The notes under the pieces are model-generated. The model searched no databases and was not told where the DNA came from. It saw nothing but the letters and a program-made list of their open reading frames with translations. Position numbers and translations under genes: made by a program. From Bacteroidota bacterium (GTDB taxonomy: Bacteria; Bacteroidota; Bacteroidia; Bacteroidales; UBA10428), in the NCBI GenBank assembly GCA_003252385.1, contig QKEH01000011.1:62001-126000 (forward strand): DNA of 64,000 nucleotides, written 5' to 3'. Of this stretch, positions 4,987 through 33,452 are shown piece after piece (the stretch's first letter is position 1; each line of letters starts with the position of its first letter).

Positions 4987-5997
4987 TTGGTTAAAATTGG
5001 AACTATAGAACTGGGCCATCAGCCCATATTTCTGGCACCTATGGAAGATGTTACGGATCCTTCATTCCGTTTCGTGTGCAAACATTTTGGTGCCGATGTG
5101 GTGTATACCGAGTTTATTTCTTCGGACGGGCTCATACGCGATGGCCACAAAAGTGTTGAAAAGCTGCGAATTTACGATTACGAACGCCCCATAGGCATAC
5201 AGATATACGGACATCTGATTGATGCCATGGTCGAATCGGCACAGATTGTGGAACAGGCCAACCCCGATTTTATTGATATCAACTTTGGCTGCCCGGTAAA
5301 AAAAATCGCGCGGCGGGGTGCAGGCTCGGGTATGTTGCAAAACATTCCCCTGCTTCTGGAAATGACTCAGGCCATTGTAAAGGCCGTTAAAAAACCGGTA
5401 ACCGTTAAAACCCGTTTGGGCTGGGACGACGACAGCAAAATAATTGTTCCGCTGGCCGAGCAACTGCAGGATACCGGAATACAGGCACTGACCATTCATG
5501 GGAGAACACGTGCACAAATGTACAAAGGCGAAGCCGACTGGACCCTGATTGGCGAAGTGAAAAACAACCCCCGCATGAAGATCCCCATTATTGGCAATGG
5601 CGACATCGTAAGTCCCGAAGGAGCCAAAAAAGCATTCGATACCTACGGGGTCGACGGGATTATGATAGGAAGAGCTGCCGTAGGGCAACCCTGGATCTTC
5701 CGCGACGTTAAGCATTATCTGCAAACCGGAGAATACGCCGCTCCGCTTACCTTGTCCGAGAAGGTGGACCTGGCAAAACTCCATTTCGAAAAATCCATTG
5801 AATTCAAAGGCGAAGTGGTAGGGATATACGAAATGCGCCGCCACTTCTCAAACTACTTTAAAGGCCTTCCCCATTTTAAGGACATGCGCCTTAAGCTGGT
5901 TACCGAGAAAAACCCGAAACTCATCCCTCATCTACTGGATGAAATAAAAGAAAAATGGAATTATCAGGATGCCGGGGCGGGGTCGGAGCCAAACTAA
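4987..5997 (+). CDS. dusB: tRNA-dihydrouridine synthase
   Basis: A 336-residue FMN enzyme that reduces specific uridines in the tRNA D-loop to dihydrouridine using NADPH. Visible motifs are the N-terminal FLAPMEDVTDPSFR, the catalytic-Cys motif NFGCPVKKI (Cys102), GRTR in the phosphate/tRNA-binding region and GNGDI / DGIMIGRAA in the FMN phosphate-binding barrel end, followed by a C-terminal helical tRNA-binding region. The start is TTG at 4987, giving MVKIGTIELG, which matches the usual N-terminus of the family; no in-frame ATG gives a complete barrel. It is a single-gene unit. DusB-type length and the MEDVTDPSF motif support DusB over DusA or DusC. Confidence 0.93.
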   Translation: MVKIGTIELGHQPIFLAPMEDVTDPSFRFVCKHFGADVVYTEFISSDGLIRDGHKSVEKLRIYDYERPIGIQIYGHLIDAMVESAQIVEQANPDFIDINFGCPVKKIARRGAGSGMLQNIPLLLEMTQAIVKAVKKPVTVKTRLGWDDDSKIIVPLAEQLQDTGIQALTIHGRTRAQMYKGEADWTLIGEVKNNPRMKIPIIGNGDIVSPEGAKKAFDTYGVDGIMIGRAAVGQPWIFRDVKHYLQTGEYAAPLTLSEKVDLAKLHFEKSIEFKGEVVGIYEMRRHFSNYFKGLPHFKDMRLKLVTEKNPKLIPHLLDEIKEKWNYQDAGAGSEPN

Positions 5998-6061
5998 CTT
6001 CAGAATTTGATAAATGGCTAATTTTCTATATTTTGGCTCCTACCTATCAACGGTACATTGT

Positions 6062-6646
6062 ATGAAAACTTCAATTACATCACGGACGCTACTTTTTTTC
6101 GTTTGTGTGACCATGGCATCCGTAAGTTCATTCGCTAAAAAAGACAAGTTCTGTGATGGGTACATAATCACAGTTAAAGGAGATACAATTCATGGGGCAT
6201 TACAGTTTTACGATTGGGAAACCAGCTGCAAAAAGGTAACCCTCATGATGGATAGTACAACAACCAGAGATTATAAACCCGCACAGCTGAATGGATATCA
6301 GCGTGGCGAAGAACGATTTATTGCTTGCTCCTTTAAAAAAGGCGGCGATGCTCCGGAACAAGTGAACCAAGTTTTTCTTAAAGTTATAAGAGAAGGAATA
6401 GTTTCTTATTACGAACATACCTACATTGTCTACCTTAATAATGCAAATCCGAGTTATGTCAAAGACAGATACTTGCTTCGGAATGGAGAGGAATTGTTTA
6501 AGGTTCGGCCACTAAAATTCCGTAAAGAAGGCAGTCAGTATTTTTCCGATTATCCGCAGTTAGCACAAATGATCTCCTCGACAAAATTAATACATACACA
6601 GTTGGATTATATTGTAGATCAGTACAATAAAAAGATGACGCCATAG
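6062..6646 (+). CDS. Small exported protein of unknown function (family also seen at 24.7 kb)
   Basis: About 194 residues from the ATG at 6062, chosen because it places a classic signal peptide first (MKTSITSRTLLFFVCVTMAS, cleavage near SFA); an ATG 48 bp upstream is possible but adds a non-signal tail. The mature part has GDTIHGALQFYDWE near the start, then mixed alpha/beta sequence, and a C-terminal FSDYP...IVDQYNKK segment. The same layout (FSDCP...MVRCYNTN) occurs in the truncated ORF at 24696, so this is a paralogous family in this genome. I know similar exported Bacteroidota proteins only as hypothetical. It converges on the caspase-like gene. Confidence 0.65.
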   Translation: MKTSITSRTLLFFVCVTMASVSSFAKKDKFCDGYIITVKGDTIHGALQFYDWETSCKKVTLMMDSTTTRDYKPAQLNGYQRGEERFIACSFKKGGDAPEQVNQVFLKVIREGIVSYYEHTYIVYLNNANPSYVKDRYLLRNGEELFKVRPLKFRKEGSQYFSDYPQLAQMISSTKLIHTQLDYIVDQYNKKMTP

Positions 6647-12836: not shown

Positions 12837-14150
12837 TTAACGAACCAGTGTAATGTTTACCGTTCTCCCGGTATCGGTACATATCAGGTAATTTCCCATG
12901 GGCAAAACATTCCCGGAGCCATCCCGGCCATCCCAGTAATTGGGCGTAACAAGCTTGCGTACTAAAATACCCTCGCGGTTGATGATTTCAACATTACCTT
13001 CGTGGGGAATAAAATATTCGTCCTCAACCGCATCGCCATTCGGGGTAAAAACCGGATAATCGTCGAGGCAACGCTGCAATACCGTAATATCCTGCCCGTA
13101 CTCTGCCACACAATTCCGGTCATCAATAAGCTGTATGCGATATAAGCCTTCCGGCACCATCGTCAGGTCAGATACCACCCGATGGCTAATGGCATTACGC
13201 ACCTGAACCTGATGGTTTCCCACGAGGTTTTCCACGTCGAATGATTCCAGGTTAATGGCCCCTTCCATCCAGCAATCTGCTTCATGTTTCTCGTATTGAG
13301 CATCCAGGAATTTCAATTTACGGAGCTGAATATTCACGTGTTCCTCTGCAATACAGCCTTCGGGAGAGATGGCTTTTAAATCAACAATCGTATCCCGAAA
13401 CAAGGTGATATCCCCCTCTATTGCAGTACGGTTCCATTCCAGTACACCGCCCGACGGTTGATTTTCAGCAACAAGCAACACGCTGTCGCATTTATCCTGA
13501 ATCGCATAATGAATCCGGGGATTATCCACAATACGGAATGTGGCCGATTTTTCCTGTAAACAATATTCGCTCTCATACCGTATCGAATACGTGCCCGGGT
13601 TGCTGGATTGAGGAACCAGAACATTTTGTGAATCGATACGCAAACCTGTTTCCGAATAGCTCCGGAAACTGTTTTCAGGCAGGTTGCTGATAATTGAAAC
13701 CGGTTCACCATCGGAGCAGGCTCTGTGTACAGGTAGGTTTACCGTATATCTATGGGCCGTTATTGAAGAAATATACCGCATGGGTATTCCCCCAACCACC
13801 GTATCGTAAGCAGTATAATCAACCAGAGAAGTTTTACATCCGTCTGCGGCCAATAGGAACTGAAATCCAAGCTGATCCGAATTGGTGGTTACCAACCCGG
13901 AAGTGTCGGCTTGTGATCCCCATGTTCCTGATATTTGATGCGGAAAATCGGTACTATCGATATAGACCGTATCATTTTCAGCCGTATAAACAAGGATAGA
14001 ATCACCTGACAGTATGCTATTTCCTTCAAGGGTAGGAATACAATTCAGGACTACCCTGATGCTACCGGAAGCCTTTATGGGATTACTAACCAGCAGCATA
14101 CTTACCACCCCAATGACGTAATAATATCGTATTCTGAACCAAATCATCAT
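12837..14150 (-). CDS. Secreted protein with T9SS type B (gliding motility-type, CHU_C) sorting domain
   Basis: About 437 residues from the ATG at 14150, chosen because it opens the signal peptide (MMIWFRIRYYYVIGVVSMLL, cleavage near IKASG); the frame extends 45 bp further upstream. The body is beta-rich with paired cysteines and no domain I can name. The last ~85 residues are a type B sorting domain: VFTPNGDAVEDEYF, a NREGILVRKL strand, the YWDGRDGSGNVLPMGNYLI core and the end NITLVR. Type B cargo is usually exported through T9SS with a PorP/SprF-type partner; such a gene lies at 16385-17299. It is the most distal gene of a minus-strand group running from 17299. Confidence 0.8.
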   Translation of the reverse strand: MMIWFRIRYYYVIGVVSMLLVSNPIKASGSIRVVLNCIPTLEGNSILSGDSILVYTAENDTVYIDSTDFPHQISGTWGSQADTSGLVTTNSDQLGFQFLLAADGCKTSLVDYTAYDTVVGGIPMRYISSITAHRYTVNLPVHRACSDGEPVSIISNLPENSFRSYSETGLRIDSQNVLVPQSSNPGTYSIRYESEYCLQEKSATFRIVDNPRIHYAIQDKCDSVLLVAENQPSGGVLEWNRTAIEGDITLFRDTIVDLKAISPEGCIAEEHVNIQLRKLKFLDAQYEKHEADCWMEGAINLESFDVENLVGNHQVQVRNAISHRVVSDLTMVPEGLYRIQLIDDRNCVAEYGQDITVLQRCLDDYPVFTPNGDAVEDEYFIPHEGNVEIINREGILVRKLVTPNYWDGRDGSGNVLPMGNYLICTDTGRTVNITLVR

Positions 14151-14260
14151 TTTACGAATATACTTAAAAAGATGTATCTGCAGATAACTGGACACCGGTA
14201 CCAGACAGGTAAAAGCTAACCCGGTTCTGGTAAAAACCGGGTTGGCTGAAAAAGTGTATG

Positions 14261-16294
14261 CTATTTTATTACGCTTATTTTACCGGTAACCGATCTATCA
14301 CTCAAAGGCATTTTGTAGTAGTAGGTACCCTCCTCGATAGGGTTAAGGGGTATCGCTATTTGGTTTTCGCCCGGATAAATTGTATGGTACTCCTGTGAGA
14401 ATACGAGCTGCCCGGCCATACTATATACCGACACGGTCACCGGCAATTCATCAACACTGTAAAACTTTAAAAATACTTCATCCCGGGCCGGAACCGGAAA
14501 TACCAGAACCTCATCGGTATAATTTCCGATACCGTCATTTAAGTAATTCGCACATTTTGTATAGTAAATGCTGTCGATATACCCGTTGGAAATGGTTTTA
14601 CACCGGGTTGCCCTGCAGCTGTTGCTAAATTCTACGGTGAGGCACACCTCGTAGTCTCCCTCATACGGGAAGATATGTAAGACCTCATCCTCCGAGGAAT
14701 ACGTGCCATCGCCCAGGCTCCAGCTATAGGAAACAATATCCTCCTGTAAGGGAGCTGTAAACTGATGTACCAGTTCATAATCCGGATCATAGCATCGGGG
14801 TATTAGCACATCATGGGTAAAGTCAACTGAGCAGCTGTCCACTCCGGCATATACCTCTTTACAAATGTTCTGGAAGCAATCCGTTGTGCTTATGGTCAGG
14901 CAAACCTTATAAATACCGGGCACCTCATACCGATGAACCGGATTCCGTTCGGAAGAAATGCTTCCATCGCCGAAGCTCCAGGCCGCTGAAGCAAAATCGG
15001 GCAATGAAGTATTCACAAATCCAATGACCGTGCCGGCTATACTATCTCCTTGTGCCGATCTGTAGGTACAGTATTTAAAATCAGCCATGCATTCGTTTAT
15101 AACCGTATCGATAGTTACAAGCGAACAATAGCTGTTCACACAACCCCCTGAAGTTTCAATGGTAAGGCAAACATCATATAGTCCACCATGCGGATATTCG
15201 TGATAGGGGTTTTCCCGATTGGAACTGCTGCCGTCGCCAAAATCCCAGGACCAGCTTGTAACATCAGCACTCGACCCATCGAAGAATTGTATGCCACCTC
15301 GATATCCATGCAGGTGATTTGTAACGCCCCAACAAGAATCCATTGCAGGTATATAATTGAAATGAGCATAGCATGTGCTACTATCGTTAATCACAATATT
15401 ATGACAACGTGTGCTTATACATCCATTGGCTGTTTCGGAGGTTAGGCAAATCGTGTAGTTCCCTGGTTCGTTGAAAGTGTAATACATGCAGGAATCGGTT
15501 GAAAGGGTATCGCCGTTGTACTCCCAGGTACGAGAAACCACCTGGCCATCCGAAACATCAACAAACTCGAAATGATACATAGGCCATGGCGCAAAAATCT
15601 CAGAATCTGCCTGTACATATATTGGATAGATCTGATGCCAGGTAAACTCGGTCTGGCAGGAGGGCCTTTCTCCCACATACAGATTATCGCAATAACGGCT
15701 GCTGCAACCCTCCATGGTAATAATCTCGAGACAGATGGTATGCGTGCCCGATTCGGTAAACAGGTAATTGGGAATGCAGCGTTCCGAAGAATTCAGTGTG
15801 TCTCCATCAACCATCCAAGTTCGGTGGATCACATTCCCTGCAGAACTATCTACAAAATAGTACGATTCATAGGTTCCTCCGGGGGTTATTATCCCGGGGA
15901 TGATCTCGAAATAAGCATGACACTCGGATTGGGGAATTTTTGAAAAACAGGTAACCAATGCTGCAGGGCCATGTGTACAATACTCTTCTATATTCAATAT
16001 TTCATAATCGAGCATTACCCAATCCCCGGAATAGAGCACTTCGTTAATACCCATTGGATAAATGGTATCCCCATTATCAATAGCAATATATCTGGGGCAA
16101 AAATCGTCGGTAAACTCACCCACCACCCCATAGTGCGCGCAGTTGAGCGATGGCATGCTATCCACTATTCTATCCATAGTGAATGAGGGCATGGGTAGGC
16201 TGTCTACCCGACAAAATCCAACCTTCCCGAAGAAAATACCAGCAGAAAGTGCCAACACGAACACTCGCTGCTTCCAATTTAAAATGTTTTTCAT
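14261..16294 (-). CDS. PKD-repeat secreted protein with T9SS type A sorting domain
   Basis: About 677 residues from the ATG at 16294, which opens a signal peptide (MKNILNWKQRVFVLALSAG, cleavage near VGFC); upstream ATGs add a non-signal extension. There are at least five PKD-like repeats. Three are canonical, with WDFGDGS, WSFGDGS and SWSLGDGT; two are degenerate, with the order RTW-GDTL then a GxxTICLE strand. Each repeat carries cysteine pairs, suggesting disulphide bonding. The C-terminus is a type A sorting domain (LVFPVPARDEVFLKF ... SVTGKISVIK). PKD arrays are rigid extracellular spacers or adhesion modules. It lies between a type B cargo gene and a PorP/SprF gene. Confidence 0.85.
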   Translation of the reverse strand: MKNILNWKQRVFVLALSAGIFFGKVGFCRVDSLPMPSFTMDRIVDSMPSLNCAHYGVVGEFTDDFCPRYIAIDNGDTIYPMGINEVLYSGDWVMLDYEILNIEEYCTHGPAALVTCFSKIPQSECHAYFEIIPGIITPGGTYESYYFVDSSAGNVIHRTWMVDGDTLNSSERCIPNYLFTESGTHTICLEIITMEGCSSRYCDNLYVGERPSCQTEFTWHQIYPIYVQADSEIFAPWPMYHFEFVDVSDGQVVSRTWEYNGDTLSTDSCMYYTFNEPGNYTICLTSETANGCISTRCHNIVINDSSTCYAHFNYIPAMDSCWGVTNHLHGYRGGIQFFDGSSADVTSWSWDFGDGSSSNRENPYHEYPHGGLYDVCLTIETSGGCVNSYCSLVTIDTVINECMADFKYCTYRSAQGDSIAGTVIGFVNTSLPDFASAAWSFGDGSISSERNPVHRYEVPGIYKVCLTISTTDCFQNICKEVYAGVDSCSVDFTHDVLIPRCYDPDYELVHQFTAPLQEDIVSYSWSLGDGTYSSEDEVLHIFPYEGDYEVCLTVEFSNSCRATRCKTISNGYIDSIYYTKCANYLNDGIGNYTDEVLVFPVPARDEVFLKFYSVDELPVTVSVYSMAGQLVFSQEYHTIYPGENQIAIPLNPIEEGTYYYKMPLSDRSVTGKISVIK

Positions 16295-16384
16295 AGTAAT
16301 GAATTTGGTTTGTTTTTTATTCATACTACAATTAACTACTGCTGAAGTAACCACTCACCGGGAATTTTGGCAGTATTTATAAAA

Positions 16385-17299
16385 CTAGTCAGGAGTGGTA
16401 AAGTTAAAACTCAACTCGAGTAGCGGAGTATTGATGCTGGATGTTGCCAAATTCAGAACGGTATAGCTCATGTGAAATTCAACCATTTTTCGGGATAGAA
16501 CCGTAATCGGCAGCCCTACTTCAGCAACCATTCTCCGACTTGTATACAGACCAATACCCACATCCAACCAGTGCCTGTAGTCAGCTCTCAAATAAGCACT
16601 TATGGATGGTTTTGTGTTGCCCGTATATTCCATGTACAACGGGATCGTAACCAATACTATTGGCTTGAGCGAAACTGCTGCAGATGGATTATAACTTCCT
16701 CCCAGGCAAAAATTCAAATGCGGATTCAATCGGGTTATTTGCTGTAAAGGTTGCAGCTCGCTGTTCAGAAGCTGATTAACAGAAGTGCCAAAAAAGATTT
16801 CGTTGGTATAGAGTTGAAACCCAACCGATGCATCGGGCTTTATATCCGAACCATCACCCGACAAGGGCGTACCTTTAACATGATAATTGACGGCACCTAT
16901 ATTAAATCCTCCCGATATTTTAAGCCTGTTAAAAGCATGCGCATGCCAGGCATAATTTGCGTAGATGCGCGACCGGTTAATGTATTTACCTTCCTGATCG
17001 TTAAATACGGAAACCCCGATCGTACTAAATGGTTTCCGATTGCGTTGCGAATTCGATAAACGAACATACCCGGAAGCATAGTACGATGCAATTTTCCGCA
17101 TATTCCCCAGCACATGCTGGTTTCCGACCAGCCATTCGGAATTACTGTAACTGCATGCGGCTGCCGGATTCGCATGCCTGTAGGCCTGATACCCTTGCAT
17201 GTATTGCACTGGATACAACGAAATCCGATCCTGAGCCAATAAAGTTATTTGCGCCAAAGCGTAAAACAGGAACAGAAATAGGAACTTAGTGCGAATCAA
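16385..17299 (-). CDS. PorP/SprF family T9SS membrane protein
   Basis: A 304-residue outer-membrane beta-barrel protein with signal peptide (1-22, ending TLLAQ). The family N-terminus follows: YPVQYMQGYQAYRHANPAAA, corresponding to the NPA motif of PorP/SprF. Alternating beta strands run to a C-terminus ending LELSFNFTTPD. PorP/SprF proteins are needed for export or surface attachment of individual T9SS type B cargo, and their genes usually lie beside that cargo. Here the candidates are the type B gene at 12837 and, across the divergent region, the membrane partner of the sigma factor, which also has a type B-like C-terminus. Confidence 0.83.
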   Translation of the reverse strand: MIRTKFLFLFLFYALAQITLLAQDRISLYPVQYMQGYQAYRHANPAAACSYSNSEWLVGNQHVLGNMRKIASYYASGYVRLSNSQRNRKPFSTIGVSVFNDQEGKYINRSRIYANYAWHAHAFNRLKISGGFNIGAVNYHVKGTPLSGDGSDIKPDASVGFQLYTNEIFFGTSVNQLLNSELQPLQQITRLNPHLNFCLGGSYNPSAAVSLKPIVLVTIPLYMEYTGNTKPSISAYLRADYRHWLDVGIGLYTSRRMVAEVGLPITVLSRKMVEFHMSYTVLNLATSSINTPLLELSFNFTTPD

Positions 17300-17648
17300 T
17301 ATTTCCCTTCACGAATTATTTAGACTTGAGCATCAAAAATAATAGATTTCTATATTGAATATCATTTCCAAGCCCCGAACTTTATTAATATATAAACTTT
17401 TGGGTTACTTTTTTACTTTTAAAATGTAGTATGAATAACCTGTAAAATATTTGCCCATGAAAACCCGGACATATCTGATGTTTGCTATTTTATTACCGTA
17501 GATATAATTGCTGTTATACCTGGGCTTTCAGTTGGTTTACTTTATCCGAAACAATTATTTCCATGAAGCAGCACCCATTGATCCTCATGAAGCGGCTGCC
17601 CTGCTGGTACAACAGAGCATCATTAACCTTTCCCATTAACTAGAAAGA
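17300..17648 (+). other. Divergent intergenic region before the sigma factor gene
   Basis: This 349-base AT-rich stretch separates the PorP/SprF gene (minus) from the sigma factor gene (plus) and must hold promoters for both. I find no clear TAnnTTTG box. It contains an interrupted small reading frame (17457-17639), listed separately. Confidence 0.5.
17457..17639 (+). pseudogene. Interrupted small membrane-protein frame upstream of the sigma factor
   Basis: From the ATG at 17457 the frame reads MKTRTYLMFAILLP, then TAG (17499-17501), one codon, TAA (17505-17507), and continues in the same frame as LLYLGFQLVYFIRNNYFHEA ... to a stop at 17637, 9 bp before the sigma factor ATG. The two halves join into one hydrophobic segment followed by a soluble tail rich in acidic and small residues, which reads like real coding sequence. 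The two in-frame stops suggest a recent loss, or the second half may start at TTG 17508. No homologue is known to me. Confidence 0.3.
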
Positions 17649-18212
17649 ATGTCGGCTAATAAGCAGCTAATACAAAGCATAAAAACCGAATGTGGCAATG
17701 CCATACTGGAGGAATTATACACCCGGATATTCCCAAAGGTAAAAGCATATATCCGAAACCATTCCGGTTCTTCCGACGATGCGTTCGATATTTTTCAGGA
17801 TGCCGTTGTGATTTTGTGCCGGTACATCCGCACTGGACGCTACGATGAAGACAAAGACGTTGACGGTTTCCTATTCACTATCTGCCGAAATTTATGGATC
17901 AATAAAGCCAAACGTGATAAAAAACAGATCATTCAAACTGAAGGCATCGAAATTGCCGACCCCTACGATTTCACCAACGATATTCTAACCCCTGAAAAGG
18001 AACGGTACCTGCAATGTATCATACAAAAGCTTGGTAACAAGTGTTTTAAGCTCCTTCAATACTCGGTATACCATCATAAAACGAATTCAGAGATTTGCCA
18101 GCTGATGAAATTTGCCACAGAAAACTCTGTAAAAACCCAGAAATACAAATGTAAACAGAAGTTGATGGAGATTATGGAAGCTCATCCCGCTTTACAGGAA
18201 GTACTTGACTAA
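17649..18212 (+). CDS. RNA polymerase sigma factor, sigma-70 family (ECF-like)
   Basis: A 187-residue alternative sigma factor. Region 2 is visible at ~25-100 (DDAFDIFQDAVVILCRYI, then GFLFTICRNLWINKAKR, the -10 recognition helix) and a region 4 helix-turn-helix at ~135-180 (HHKTNSEICQLMKFATENSV). Size and the lack of region 3 fit the ECF group. Its stop lies 13 bp before the likely ATG of a membrane protein that should be its anti-sigma partner. The pair is divergent from the PorP/SprF gene and probably controls the surface genes on both sides; that target assignment is inference. Confidence 0.88.
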   Translation: MSANKQLIQSIKTECGNAILEELYTRIFPKVKAYIRNHSGSSDDAFDIFQDAVVILCRYIRTGRYDEDKDVDGFLFTICRNLWINKAKRDKKQIIQTEGIEIADPYDFTNDILTPEKERYLQCIIQKLGNKCFKLLQYSVYHHKTNSEICQLMKFATENSVKTQKYKCKQKLMEIMEAHPALQEVLD

Positions 18213-18225
18213 TTTGCTGTTGTCC

Positions 18226-19383
18226 ATGAAAAAGAATATAGATCTATACGAACGGATTGAAAATTACCTGGAGGGCAACCTAAGCTCCGATGAGAAACGG
18301 ATGCTGGAACATTCCATGCAACACGATAGCGTTTTACAGGAAATGGTCAATCAACATACTCGGATGCACCAATTCATTTTCGAAAGCTCCTTACATGAAG
18401 TGCGCCAAAACCTGCAATACATACACCGCCGAAATAAAACCAACCAATGGCATCGTTACCTGAAAACAGGTGGCGCCACCATTGGATTGCTTGCTATTTT
18501 CTTTTGCGCCCGCTATTATACCTCCCAGAAAACACGCCCCGAGCTCTCTACCAATCCTGTTGTTCAGTATGATTCAACCACATTAAAACAATCCCATTCA
18601 ATACCTATCAAAAAGAACACGTTGCCCATTTATAACACACAAGAACCAGAAGTGGCCCCAGCAACATGCCAGGTATCCAAGAACGCCGATCAGGCTTTGG
18701 AAGTACCGGTTATTATTCCCGTACCGGATACCACATTCGAACAGACAACATCGGAAAGTGAGCCGTCTCTTCCAAGTTTTGAACCCCTAGTACATACCCT
18801 ACCAACAGGGAAACCCAATACCAAAAACCCCGAAAATACAGAACAAAAAACAGAGGGATTATCATCCGCCGTAAACTGCGATACGGTTATTCTCCATGCT
18901 GCCTATGTCTGTTCAAAGAGTTGTTCCGACAAAGCCAATGGAAGCATCCATTTTTCTTCGGAGACTACCGGAGGTACTCCCCCCTACCAGTATTCCATCA
19001 ACAATGGGCTCGATTATTTTTCCCAAACCGAGTTTACCCATTTAAGTTGCATGCATTATTCCCTATGGGTTAAAGATGCCCATAATTGCACCACGCAAAT
19101 TGACCGGATGTACCTGGAAAGCAAAGATTGCAGTTATGATGAAGTTTTTGCACCACTCGAAGGAGAGCAATGGGAAGTGCCAACAGACGATAAACCAGCA
19201 GTACTATACATCTTTGCTCAGCAGGGCATGTTGGTTTTCCAGCATCGTATCGACGAAGGTATGACCTTCCAGTGGAACGGTACCTCCAATTCCAATAATC
19301 CGCTGCCTATGGGCGCCTATGCTTTTGTGCTCGAATTTGACACCCATGAAACCTTCCACGGTACCATTACCATAATACGATAG
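18226..19383 (+). CDS. Putative membrane anti-sigma factor with SprB repeat and T9SS type B-like C-terminus
   Basis: About 385 residues from the ATG at 18226; a TTG start 21 bp upstream is less likely. The cytoplasmic N-terminus (1-80; ENYLEGNLSSDEKRMLEHSM, typical of anti-sigma N-terminal helices) is followed by one membrane helix (~82-99, GGATIGLLAIFFCARYYT). A Pro/Thr/Glu-rich linker (~100-215) leads to one SprB-type repeat (~220-300; GGTPPYQYSINNGLDYF, HYSLWVKDAHNC). The last ~85 residues align with CHU_C type B sorting domains: EVFAPLEGEQWEV, QQGMLVFQHR, FQWNGTS, NPLPMGAYAFVLE and the end TITIIR. The same end pattern occurs at 12837. No zinc-anti-sigma motif is seen. Fusion of anti-sigma and cargo-like modules is unusual. 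Confidence 0.72.
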   Translation: MKKNIDLYERIENYLEGNLSSDEKRMLEHSMQHDSVLQEMVNQHTRMHQFIFESSLHEVRQNLQYIHRRNKTNQWHRYLKTGGATIGLLAIFFCARYYTSQKTRPELSTNPVVQYDSTTLKQSHSIPIKKNTLPIYNTQEPEVAPATCQVSKNADQALEVPVIIPVPDTTFEQTTSESEPSLPSFEPLVHTLPTGKPNTKNPENTEQKTEGLSSAVNCDTVILHAAYVCSKSCSDKANGSIHFSSETTGGTPPYQYSINNGLDYFSQTEFTHLSCMHYSLWVKDAHNCTTQIDRMYLESKDCSYDEVFAPLEGEQWEVPTDDKPAVLYIFAQQGMLVFQHRIDEGMTFQWNGTSNSNNPLPMGAYAFVLEFDTHETFHGTITIIR

Positions 19384-19608: not shown

Positions 19609-19624
19609 ACTCCCAACCGGAGAG

Positions 19625-19706
19625 TACCCGGAGCCGGAATCGAACCGGCACGGCCGAAGCCACTGGTGTTTGAGACCAGCGCGTCTACCTATTCCGCCAT
19701 CCGGGC
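19625..19706 (-). tRNA. tRNA-Leu (anticodon CAA)
   Basis: Read on the minus strand this folds as a class II tRNA. The acceptor stem is GCCCGGA/TCCGGGT with discriminator A. The anticodon stem CTGGT/ACCAG holds the loop CTCAAAC (anticodon CAA, reading UUG). A long variable arm contains GGC-TTCG-GCC, and the T arm is GCCGG-TTCGATT-CCGGC. CCA is not encoded, as is usual in this phylum. No other tRNA lies beside it. Confidence 0.95.
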
Positions 19707-30691: not shown

Positions 30692-31591
30692 TTAGTTTCC
30701 CGAACGGGTAAGAAGATTGGGCAGGCTCATCCGCAACAGCACTTCGTGCGAGCCAAAGGTGGCTCCCCGCATACCGGCAATGGGCATGTCGTAGGAGTAA
30801 CCAAAGAACAACTTCTCGTAGTTAAAACCAAACTGAAAGATGAGGGCATCGGAGCTTCGATAGGAGATACCGCCAATAAAGGTTTCCTGGTATTCCATCA
30901 GGGCATTGATATCGGCCTGAAATACGCCGGTTTCAATAAATTTTAACAGCATGGACGGTTTGAAGGTAATGTCGCGGTTGACTACAAAGGTGTACCCACC
31001 CATCAGGTTGTAGTGCCGTACCTGTTTTTGTTCAAGCACTTTATCCGACTTCAGGTCGATATTTCGTCCCAGCAGCTGTGGAACCGAAAGGCCAACGAAA
31101 TAGTTGTCGGCATAGTAGTAGGTACCAAAGCTGGCATCCGGAATCAGCATATTATCTTTTCCCGACGAAAGCACCAGGTCGTCCTGTTCTTCGAAGGTGA
31201 GCTCGGAGCGGTTCAGGTTAAATTGGTACAGCAGTGCCGATAAACCAAAGGCTAACCGGGATTCGTTGGCAAACTGCAGGTGATAGCTGTAGGTAAATTC
31301 AGCACCGGTTTTTCGCAAGGGTCCGGCGGTATAGTTAAAGAGTTTGGCCCCGGCGCCCATGTCATCGGCCAAACGCATATGCCCCGACAGGTATTGGATT
31401 GATGGGGATTCCGAGATACCCGCCCACATTTTGCGGTACGAAAAGCTCAGCGGAAGATCGTCGGTGGTTCCTGTGGCGGCAGGGTTCACCGCGTAGTGGT
31501 TGAAATAGTATTGGGTCTGTGTGGGTATTTGTTGCCCGTACAGTCCGGCTCCCCAACCAAGGAAGGTCAAAAGGTATATGCTTTTCTTCAT
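30692..31591 (-). CDS. PorP/SprF family T9SS membrane protein
   Basis: About 299 residues from the ATG at 31591 (MKKSIYLLTFLGWGAGLYG signal peptide); an ATG at 31597 adds two residues. The mature start QQIPTQTQYYFNHYAVNPAATG is the classic PorP/SprF N-terminus. Repeated beta strands follow (FEEQDDLVLSSGKDNML, GGISYRSSDALIFQFGFNYE) to a barrel end. The start overlaps the stop region of the upstream SprB-repeat gene (31602) within ~11 bp, so the two are one unit: a type B cargo and its dedicated PorP/SprF partner, as with SprB and SprF of Flavobacterium. Confidence 0.9.
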   Translation of the reverse strand: MKKSIYLLTFLGWGAGLYGQQIPTQTQYYFNHYAVNPAATGTTDDLPLSFSYRKMWAGISESPSIQYLSGHMRLADDMGAGAKLFNYTAGPLRKTGAEFTYSYHLQFANESRLAFGLSALLYQFNLNRSELTFEEQDDLVLSSGKDNMLIPDASFGTYYYADNYFVGLSVPQLLGRNIDLKSDKVLEQKQVRHYNLMGGYTFVVNRDITFKPSMLLKFIETGVFQADINALMEYQETFIGGISYRSSDALIFQFGFNYEKLFFGYSYDMPIAGMRGATFGSHEVLLRMSLPNLLTRSGN

Positions 31592-31601
31592 GCTCATCTG
31601 T

Positions 31602-33452
31602 TTAGCGTACAATACTTACGGGTCCGGTTATCGCATCGGAGCCTTCGCCCAGATCAATGATGTAGTAGTAGGTTCCTGATGGCAGATCGTTACCGTTATA
31701 CGAGCCATCCCAGGGTTCCGCAAGGTAATCCGTCGAGGAGAACACCTTGTTGCCCCAGGTATTGAGAACACTTACCGTGTGTCCCGGGTACATTTCAATA
31801 TTTTCAATGGTCCAGGTATCGTTTACGTCATCGTCATTCGGGCTGAATGCGTTGTAAATAATCAGTTTTTGCCCGCTAATAGACACCAGGGTCAGTTGGA
31901 GGGTATCCGATTGACAGCCTATAGCATCTTCGACCCAAACTTCGTACACCCCGGCGTCCAGGTTGAGGAATTCTCCGATGGTGCTGGTCAGGTTATCGGG
32001 TGCTAAGGCGTAAGCATAGGGAGCGGTTCCTCCGCCGGCCTGAAGGGCAATGGCTCCGTTGGCTCCCGAAGTGACCGGGGTCAGGGTGGTATCGGTTATG
32101 GTAATACTGAATGTGGCTGGCTGGGTGATTATGGTGTCGGTAACCAGCGAAAGGCACAAGGCCGCATCGCGGGCCAGCAGGTGGTAGGTACCTGCCGCAA
32201 GAGCAGTAAATACGGGATCCGATTGATACGACACCCCATTGGTGATGGAATATTCGTAGCTTTCCGTGCCACCGGAGGCCTCCAGAGTGATACTTCCATT
32301 GGTCGCTCCCAGGCAGCTTACCGGGTTCACCACCGGGTTTACCAGTTGAACGGCCACCGTTTCGTGGATAGTGGTATCGCGTGAGGTGCTGGTACACTGT
32401 TGGCTGTCCCTTACCCGAACGGTATAATTTCCGGGTGCCAGCCCGGTAAAAAGGCTGTCGCTCTGATAGTTGGATCCGTTGTCGGAAGAATACTGATAGG
32501 GTGCGGTGCCACCCTGCACGCCCATACCTAATTGGCCGGTGGCGGCTCCAAGGCAGCTTTCATCAACCAACAGGGAGAGCCATTGTACCACAACTTTTTC
32601 AGCGATATGGGTGTCAAGGGAGGTGCTTTCGCAGTTATTGGCATCCTTGATTCGCAGGGTATAATTGCCGGAGGTAAGGCTGCTTATCAGGCTGTCGGTT
32701 TGATAACTGGATCCGTTATTGGACGAATACTGATACGGAGCGGTACCACCCTGCGCGCCAATTCCCAATTGTCCAATGGCTCCTCCGAAGCAGGAAGAGT
32801 CGACCAGCACTGTGGTAATTTCTACCTGCGAGGGCTGCGTAACGCTTACCTCGAGCAGGGCTTCGCACAGGTTGCCATCGGTAACGGTTACACTGTAATC
32901 GCCGGCAGGTATATTTTGAAGATCCTGGCTAATGGCCGAATTCGACCATTGGTAGTCGTAGCTGGGGGTTCCGCCAGTAGGAATGAGGTTGATTTGGCCA
33001 TCAGTGTCATTGAAACAGGAGGGAGAAAGCGGAACAGCACTTAAACGCAATTCCGGGCGTTGACTCAATACGCGGGTAGCGGTCAGCGAACAGCCACTCA
33101 AATCGGTGGCAGTTACGGTATAGGTTCCCGCCTCCAGTCCGCTGGCTAAGTCGCCCGACTGGGTAGCCGGGTCGTCCCACTGATACGTTTTGGTACCGGT
33201 TCCTCCACTTGCCAGGGCTTGCAGTGCGCCCGTCAAATCGCCGTAGCAATCAATGGTTTGCTCCACACTGATGCTCAAATCCATGGCTGCCGGCTGATCC
33301 AGAATCACCGAATTGGTGGTTGGGCAATTGTTGGCATCCGTTACCGTAACAGAATAGGTAGAAGCGGCCAGATTGATCAGGTCTTCCGTGATGGCTCCGT
33401 TGTTCCAGGTGTAACGATAGGGGAGGGTACCTCCCGAAACGGAGAGGTTCAC
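31602..33452 (-). CDS. C-terminal part of SprB-repeat T9SS type B protein (downstream of a frameshift)
   Basis: 616 codons that continue the gene starting at 35887 in another frame. The ATG at 33452 falls in the middle of a repeat (repeat 5), so it is not a natural start. Six and a half SprB repeats are visible, each with a Cys, a GGT-x-x-Y-x-Y core and a GxYxVxVxDxxxC end. Repeats 8 and 9 are close copies (GGTAPYQYSSNNGSSYQ versus GGTAPYQYSSDNGSNYQ). The end is a complete CHU_C type B sorting domain: IYNAFSPNDDDVNDTW, MYPGHTVSVLNTWGNKVF, WDGSYNGNDLPSGTYYY and GPVSIVR. The PorP/SprF gene follows directly. Confidence 0.8.
   Translation of the reverse strand: MNLSVSGGTLPYRYTWNNGAITEDLINLAASTYSVTVTDANNCPTTNSVILDQPAAMDLSISVEQTIDCYGDLTGALQALASGGTGTKTYQWDDPATQSGDLASGLEAGTYTVTATDLSGCSLTATRVLSQRPELRLSAVPLSPSCFNDTDGQINLIPTGGTPSYDYQWSNSAISQDLQNIPAGDYSVTVTDGNLCEALLEVSVTQPSQVEITTVLVDSSCFGGAIGQLGIGAQGGTAPYQYSSNNGSSYQTDSLISSLTSGNYTLRIKDANNCESTSLDTHIAEKVVVQWLSLLVDESCLGAATGQLGMGVQGGTAPYQYSSDNGSNYQSDSLFTGLAPGNYTVRVRDSQQCTSTSRDTTIHETVAVQLVNPVVNPVSCLGATNGSITLEASGGTESYEYSITNGVSYQSDPVFTALAAGTYHLLARDAALCLSLVTDTIITQPATFSITITDTTLTPVTSGANGAIALQAGGGTAPYAYALAPDNLTSTIGEFLNLDAGVYEVWVEDAIGCQSDTLQLTLVSISGQKLIIYNAFSPNDDDVNDTWTIENIEMYPGHTVSVLNTWGNKVFSSTDYLAEPWDGSYNGNDLPSGTYYYIIDLGEGSDAITGPVSIVR

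Follow-up and report, generated by a model that had tools for sequence, protein, structure and literature searches.

A putative membrane anti-sigma factor ending in a remodelled type B sorting domain, encoded in a conserved cassette with type IX secretion cargo genes

Introduction

Membrane anti-sigma factors of the FecR/PupR type read an outer-membrane beta-barrel protein in cell-surface signalling. A different plan is that of Dma (PMC13088901), in which the partner of an ECF sigma factor consists of a cytosolic anti-sigma domain, one membrane helix, a long disordered tether and a C-terminal beta domain. In the PorA-PorXY-SigP system of P. gingivalis (PMC7712824, PMC4800418), a protein bearing a C-terminal domain (CTD) acts upstream of an ECF sigma factor controlling type IX secretion system (T9SS) genes. 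As for the cargo of this system, type B CTDs bind their cognate PorP/SprF proteins, as outlined in PMC9143113 and PMC12618676; the contact is thought to occur on the cell surface (PMC9143113). How the supply of T9SS cargo is matched to the capacity of the shuttle does not appear to be settled in the literature consulted.

The candidate anti-sigma factor described here resembles Dma in its whole architecture, on which the comparison is based, including the ECF sigma partner; unlike Dma, which ends in an outer-membrane beta-barrel, it ends in a SprB repeat and a T9SS CTD-like Ig sandwich, and its genetic partner is a PorP/SprF-cargo cassette. With the type B sorting proteins (CHU_C/TIGR04131; SprB, PG1035) it shares the CTD fold, the W-x-G and LPxGxY motifs, the TIxR ending and a PorP/SprF gene alongside, but it has no signal peptide, is predicted to be anchored N-in, has its NGDG loop deleted and falls below the TIGR04131 cut-off. 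PorA is a surface protein that reaches the genes of the T9SS machine through a two-component system, whereas here the CTD and the putative anti-sigma domain lie in one protein and a promoter-like element marks the cargo. Compared with FecR/PupR, it too would be a membrane anti-sigma factor, but no FecR domain was matched up to E=1 and the partner is a PorP/SprF-family protein rather than a TonB-dependent transducer. No precedent for an anti-sigma factor carrying SprB/CHU_C or a T9SS sorting domain came up in the literature searched; Dma and PorA-PorXY-SigP are the nearest published plans, and neither has the present domain combination.

Results

The sigma/anti-sigma pair and its domains

The window, i.e., the whole stretch of 64,000 nucleotides analysed in this work, carries on its plus strand an ECF sigma factor gene followed by the open reading frame 18226-19383, whose coordinates, frame and ATG start at 18226 are all correct, the orthologs beginning at the same methionine. 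The features of this pair are the following:

17403-17431, plus strand: GGTTAC-N16-TGTAGTA, a promoter-like element upstream of the operon for sigma and anti-sigma (0 mismatches)
17649-18212, plus strand: ECF sigma factor, 187 aa (Pfam Sigma70_r2, 34.2 bits; TIGR02937 sigma70-ECF, 56.3 bits, cut-off 42.9)
18226-19383, plus strand: anti-sigma-like protein, 385 aa, starting 13 bases past the sigma stop codon
18226-18453, plus strand: predicted cytosolic helical anti-sigma domain, residues 1-76 (alignment matches, sigma proximity, AlphaFold2 helices)
18454-18525, plus strand: membrane helix, approximately residues 77-100, predicted N-in (from hydropathy and the charges on either side, in 10 orthologs; AlphaFold2 helix 35-100)
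18535-18864, plus strand: disordered tether, residues 104-213 (pLDDT <50 nearly throughout)
18889-19125, plus strand: SprB repeat domain, residues 222-300 (Pfam SprB; 9/10 orthologs)
19132-19380, plus strand: CHU_C/type B CTD-like domain, residues 303-385, with the NGDG loop deleted (Pfam CHU_C; AlphaFold2)

The architecture given in the original prediction, that is, cytosolic helices, one membrane helix, a long linker and one SprB repeat, is thus confirmed by Pfam, AlphaFold2 and hydropathy in 10 orthologs. The full-length AlphaFold2 model, built from an alignment of seven orthologs, consists of helices at residues 2-100, disorder at 104-213 and beta domains at about 222-300 and 315-385. One hydrophobic helix with a positive N-side flank is present in 10/10 orthologs, that of the window copy being only moderately hydrophobic (KD 1.14); the positive-inside rule suggests the N-in orientation. 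The tether measures 95-128 aa in all orthologs, and its sequence is not conserved. No Sec signal peptide was found at the N-terminus, since the sole hydrophobic segment (about 77-100) lies behind the helical domain according to hydropathy and AlphaFold2.

The C-terminus had been regarded as homologous to CHU_C, and this holds: Pfam CHU_C matches residues 325-383 with 29.4 bits (cut-off 27), Pfam SprB matches residues 232-261 with 28.0 bits (cut-off 28), and the two domains are found in 10/10 and 9/10 orthologs, respectively, so that the matches are not due to chance. The agreement with HMMs is nevertheless partial, since the score for NCBIfam TIGR04131, 23.6 bits, does not reach the cut-off of 35. 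The CTD modelled alone by AlphaFold2 (pLDDT 95.3) is a T9SS-CTD-like Ig sandwich, in line with what had been expected, and its structural matches include PorZ, FlgD Ig domains and T9SS translocon cargo CTDs (8gl8, 8glk, 8gl6); a Foldseek search with the full-length model returned mostly weak tandem-Ig matches. The same domain had also been assigned to the genes at 31602 and 12837. The assignment is strong for the former (82.5 bits), whereas the latter, taken alone, is sub-threshold (23.5 bits) but belongs to a motif-conserved family. Past the anti-sigma gene lies a tRNA-Leu (CAA) on the minus strand (19624-19706).

A conserved cassette with porP and cargo genes

Full-length orthologs are present in 10 of the 23 genomes of the window's family (window copy included), the other nine members being 26-33% identical to the window copy; those relatives that carry a name are MAGs of uncultured Bacteroidales and Bacteroidota. 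When four candidates per genome were scored in 392 genomes of the order and 395 of the phylum, the full architecture was not found outside this family. Close relatives of the sigma factor (E<1e-60) occur only in genomes with the anti-sigma. The two genes are adjacent in 9/10 genomes; in the tenth, G003, the anti-sigma lies on a contig of 3,193 bases and the sigma on another short contig. In the window, the minus strand ahead of the sigma gene carries the following features:

16385-17299, minus strand: PorP/SprF-family protein, of the kind that serves type B cargo as shuttle or anchor, divergent from sigma (Pfam PorP_SprF, 72.7 bits)
16324-16352, minus strand: another promoter-like element, in the stretch separating porP from the cargo genes (GGTTACTTC-N13-TGTAGTA, 1 mismatch)
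14261-16294, minus strand: cargo 1, with PKD repeats and a type A sorting domain (PKD_4, 162.5 bits; Por_Secre_tail, 29.7 bits)
12837-14195, minus strand: cargo 2, with a type B CTD preceded by a SprB-like domain (CHU_C, sub-threshold as given above)

The start of cargo 1 is likely the ATG at 16294 rather than the GTG at 16354, because the promoter-like element overlaps the start of the longer open reading frame. A PorP/SprF gene is divergent from sigma in 10/10 genomes, and beyond it a type B protein of about 450 aa is present wherever this position can be read, i.e., in 8 of the 10; it is unreadable in G009 (assembly gap inside porP) and G015 (contig ending in porP). The only other genome with this type B protein is G019, where it lies at a contig end. 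The orthologs of cargo 2 end with FxPNxDGxDD...LPMGxY...TIIR. The five-gene cassette is conserved, and its flanking genes are not shared between genomes. SprA is present in the source genome.

Some variants were also observed. Two genomes have the PKD cargo replaced by a lipoprotein-like gene (L033, 4911-6023; L036, 5426-6421), the two copies being 52.6% identical to each other and showing weak DUF4595 or RHS-repeat matches. At L035 (5822-7423) a PorP joined to a SusC-like end via unknown residues is an assembly gap. Finally, the window harbors a second pair (30692-33452) of a PorP/SprF gene and a SprB-repeat type B gene, before which the window scan gave no good promoter-like match.

The N-terminal module and its sigma partner

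An alignment of residues 1-103 retrieved relatives in 147 of the 392 genomes of the order, and most open frames among the matches listed are of about 245-290 aa. At the inspected loci a related sigma gene is near or adjacent, and among the inspected C-termini (L062-L068, L073 and L124-L136, across the order) several are TPR. These data support the idea of a widespread anti-sigma module at the N-terminus, to which different sensors, often TPR, can be joined; the SprB-CTD would be one of these sensors, so far seen in the window's family alone. Because the module co-occurs with ECF sigma genes, its helices are expected to hold the sigma factor. The anti-sigma identity originally proposed therefore gains support from the adjoining ECF sigma gene in 9/10 genomes and from a helical domain common to sigma-adjacent proteins, and we infer that 18226-19383 encodes a membrane anti-sigma factor binding the ECF sigma encoded just upstream. 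Separately, at L128 (194-1285) an anti-sigma-type N-terminus is followed by a domain that, judged by eye, is trypsin/DegP-like.

A promoter-like element shared by the sigma and cargo operons

Upstream of the sigma gene, GGTTAC and TGTARTA-like boxes with a spacing of exactly 16 are present in 10/10 genomes. The same element, scored with a matrix built from the pre-sigma sites only and with the tested genome left out, precedes the cargo operon at the same position in 8/8 evaluable modules, with a combined p of about 5e-12 that does not come from independent cases, because the modules are homologous. The cargo site of G009 is not evaluable because porP there runs into unknown bases of the assembly, for which reason its biological loss was rejected. 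Toward porP, no element with both boxes was found in 9 loci, and porP was accordingly discarded as a regulon member.

In the source genome (3.93 Mb) three sites with at most one mismatch were found, two of them in the cassette, against four with the reversed-pattern control, so that there it is the location of the sites, not their number, that carries weight. The 11 other genomes hold 13 exact matches, 11 of which lie in the cassette, and the reversed pattern gave none; three cassette-less genomes have zero exact matches. Of the two exact matches elsewhere, the one in G001 (L154, 5336-5364) precedes a lipoprotein-like gene (5429-6403) that may be an additional, non-cassette member of the regulon, and the one in G015 (L153, 1487-1515) stands some 30 bases upstream of a gene resembling apolipoprotein N-acyltransferase. 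The promoter activity of these elements is deduced from their sequence and placement. The paralogous sigma genes (L063, L064, L065, L067, L128, L130, L131, L133, L134) are often preceded by GGTTAC with another second box (about ATTAATA), which suggests subfamily-specific -10 recognition among the paralogs.

The C-terminal domain as a remodelled sorting domain

The loop F-[ST]-P-N-x-D (NGDG) is present in 0/10 anti-sigma orthologs vs. 44 of the 45 other type B C-termini taken from the family genomes and related ones; judging from its sequence, the CTD is a remodelled sorting domain. In F. johnsoniae, secretion of the SprB CTD stopped when any one of five motifs conserved among type B CTDs was mutated, as outlined in PMC12618676; two of these motifs lie in loops, and the loop deleted here may correspond to one of the five. 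Since the conserved loop is missing, the sensor is probably not exportable, and its loss in 10/10 orthologs supports the earlier remark that export makes no sense for an inner-membrane protein with a sorting domain.

The sensor is homologous to the neighbouring cargo: its residues 224-385 align with residues 298-452 of cargo 2, i.e., the last 155 or so (hhalign 99.1%, E=6e-19), and P[ML]G-x-Y occurs in 9/10 sensors and 9/9 cargo proteins vs. 2/36 other type B CTDs, counts that are phylogenetically non-independent. In the CTD tree, the anti-sigma domains, the cargo and the remainder form one group each; the separate clades led us to reject the idea of a recent copy of the neighbouring cargo's CTD.

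Discussion

The presence of the element before both its own operon and the cargo genes makes this switch look like a built-in gauge of T9SS cargo. The N-terminal helices would hold the sigma factor in the cytosol, while the membrane helix and a tether of about 110 residues would carry an extracytoplasmic sensor in which, as homology and the structural model show, a SprB repeat is combined with a type B sorting domain that has been remodelled. A signal received by this sensor would free the sigma factor, which might then drive transcription of the sigma/anti-sigma operon and of the T9SS cargo genes next to it, not of porP, from GGTTAC-N16-TGTARTA. We take the state of type B export to be the most probable signal. 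Because type B CTDs bind cognate PorP/SprF proteins, the simplest reading is that the sensor, a mimic of the cargo C-terminus, docks on the adjacent PorP/SprF shuttle: a free shuttle would keep cargo synthesis on, and a cargo-filled one would displace the sensor by competition and turn synthesis off. We consider the chances to be evenly balanced that the T9SS cargo genes are under the control of a dedicated sigma/anti-sigma pair that senses type B export, docking on PorP/SprF being the most likely means. More tentative, and in our judgement somewhat short of that balance, is the specific idea of a loop-less, non-exportable type B tag acting as a decoy on the shuttle and matching cargo transcription to free shuttle capacity.

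In favor of this explanation are the conserved cassette, its restricted distribution, the divergence of porP, the sensor-cargo homology, the loss of the loop, P[ML]G-x-Y and the shared element, whose presence on the cargo but not on porP would suit a receptor kept constant while the cargo is regulated. The claim that the sensor reports on T9SS cargo handling, a speculation when it was made, has in this way acquired partial support from the cassette, from the element on sigma and cargo and from the homology. On the other side, the contact between type B CTDs and PorP, if it lies on the cell surface, may be beyond the reach of a tethered loop-less sensor, and docking would fail if the deleted loop were also needed for shuttle recognition. 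Moreover, the anti-sigma CTDs form their own clade rather than falling within that of the neighbouring cargo, and when the source genome is taken by itself the pattern is not enriched over its control.

Other readings agree with part of these data. The tandem SprB-CTD ending common to sensor and cargo, together with the type B protein as the universal product of the putative regulon and the TPR or trypsin/DegP-like domains of anti-sigma relatives, would suit a sensor that monitors the cargo directly within the periplasm (its backlog or misfolding, via SprB/Ig contacts), with regulated proteolysis as the release step, in the manner of a cargo-specific envelope stress response. This we regard as unlikely, given that a backlog should lower cargo synthesis, not raise it, unless the signal only shuts it off, that porP neighbours the pair as constantly as the cargo does and that the cassette has no protease gene. 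A slightly smaller probability is assigned to an anti-sigma spanning both membranes in the manner of Dma, with the CTD in or outside the outer membrane, where, as has been suggested for PorA, it would sense assembly at the surface or a ligand from outside; the four-part plan (PMC13088901), the constrained tether length and the precedent of PorA, a CTD protein feeding PorXY-SigP (PMC7712824), speak for it, but an Ig-like sandwich is no outer-membrane barrel and the loop of other type B CTDs is deleted throughout the orthologs.

It seems improbable that the CHU_C-like domain does no more than bind a ligand or the wall, as a generic Ig-like domain would, and has no current link to T9SS: Pfam FlgD_ig also matches it and FlgD Ig domains are among its structural neighbours, yet the promoter-like element is held in common with T9SS cargo and the PorP/SprF adjacency is constant. 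Least credible by far is the reading in which a normal T9SS cargo has been taken for a membrane protein, since, although CHU_C exceeds the Pfam cut-off, the protein has no signal peptide, its helix is preceded by a cytosolic domain of about 76 residues common to proteins near sigma genes, and the NGDG loop is missing in 10/10.

If the docking explanation is true, cargo traffic through the type IX system and transcription would be directly linked in one protein, whose sensor is derived from a secretion signal. The cassette provides candidate parts for the matching of supply to capacity: a sigma factor, an anti-sigma factor, a shuttle, two cargo genes and two promoter-like elements. The protein would also belong to an anti-sigma family with freely swapped sensor domains. 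As further observations on the N-terminal module, anti-sigma-like segments are repeated at L124-L127, L130, L131 and L134, and at L129 (3146-4492) a single open reading frame encodes first an ECF sigma factor and then an anti-sigma domain with a membrane helix, an arrangement that recalls Dma3.
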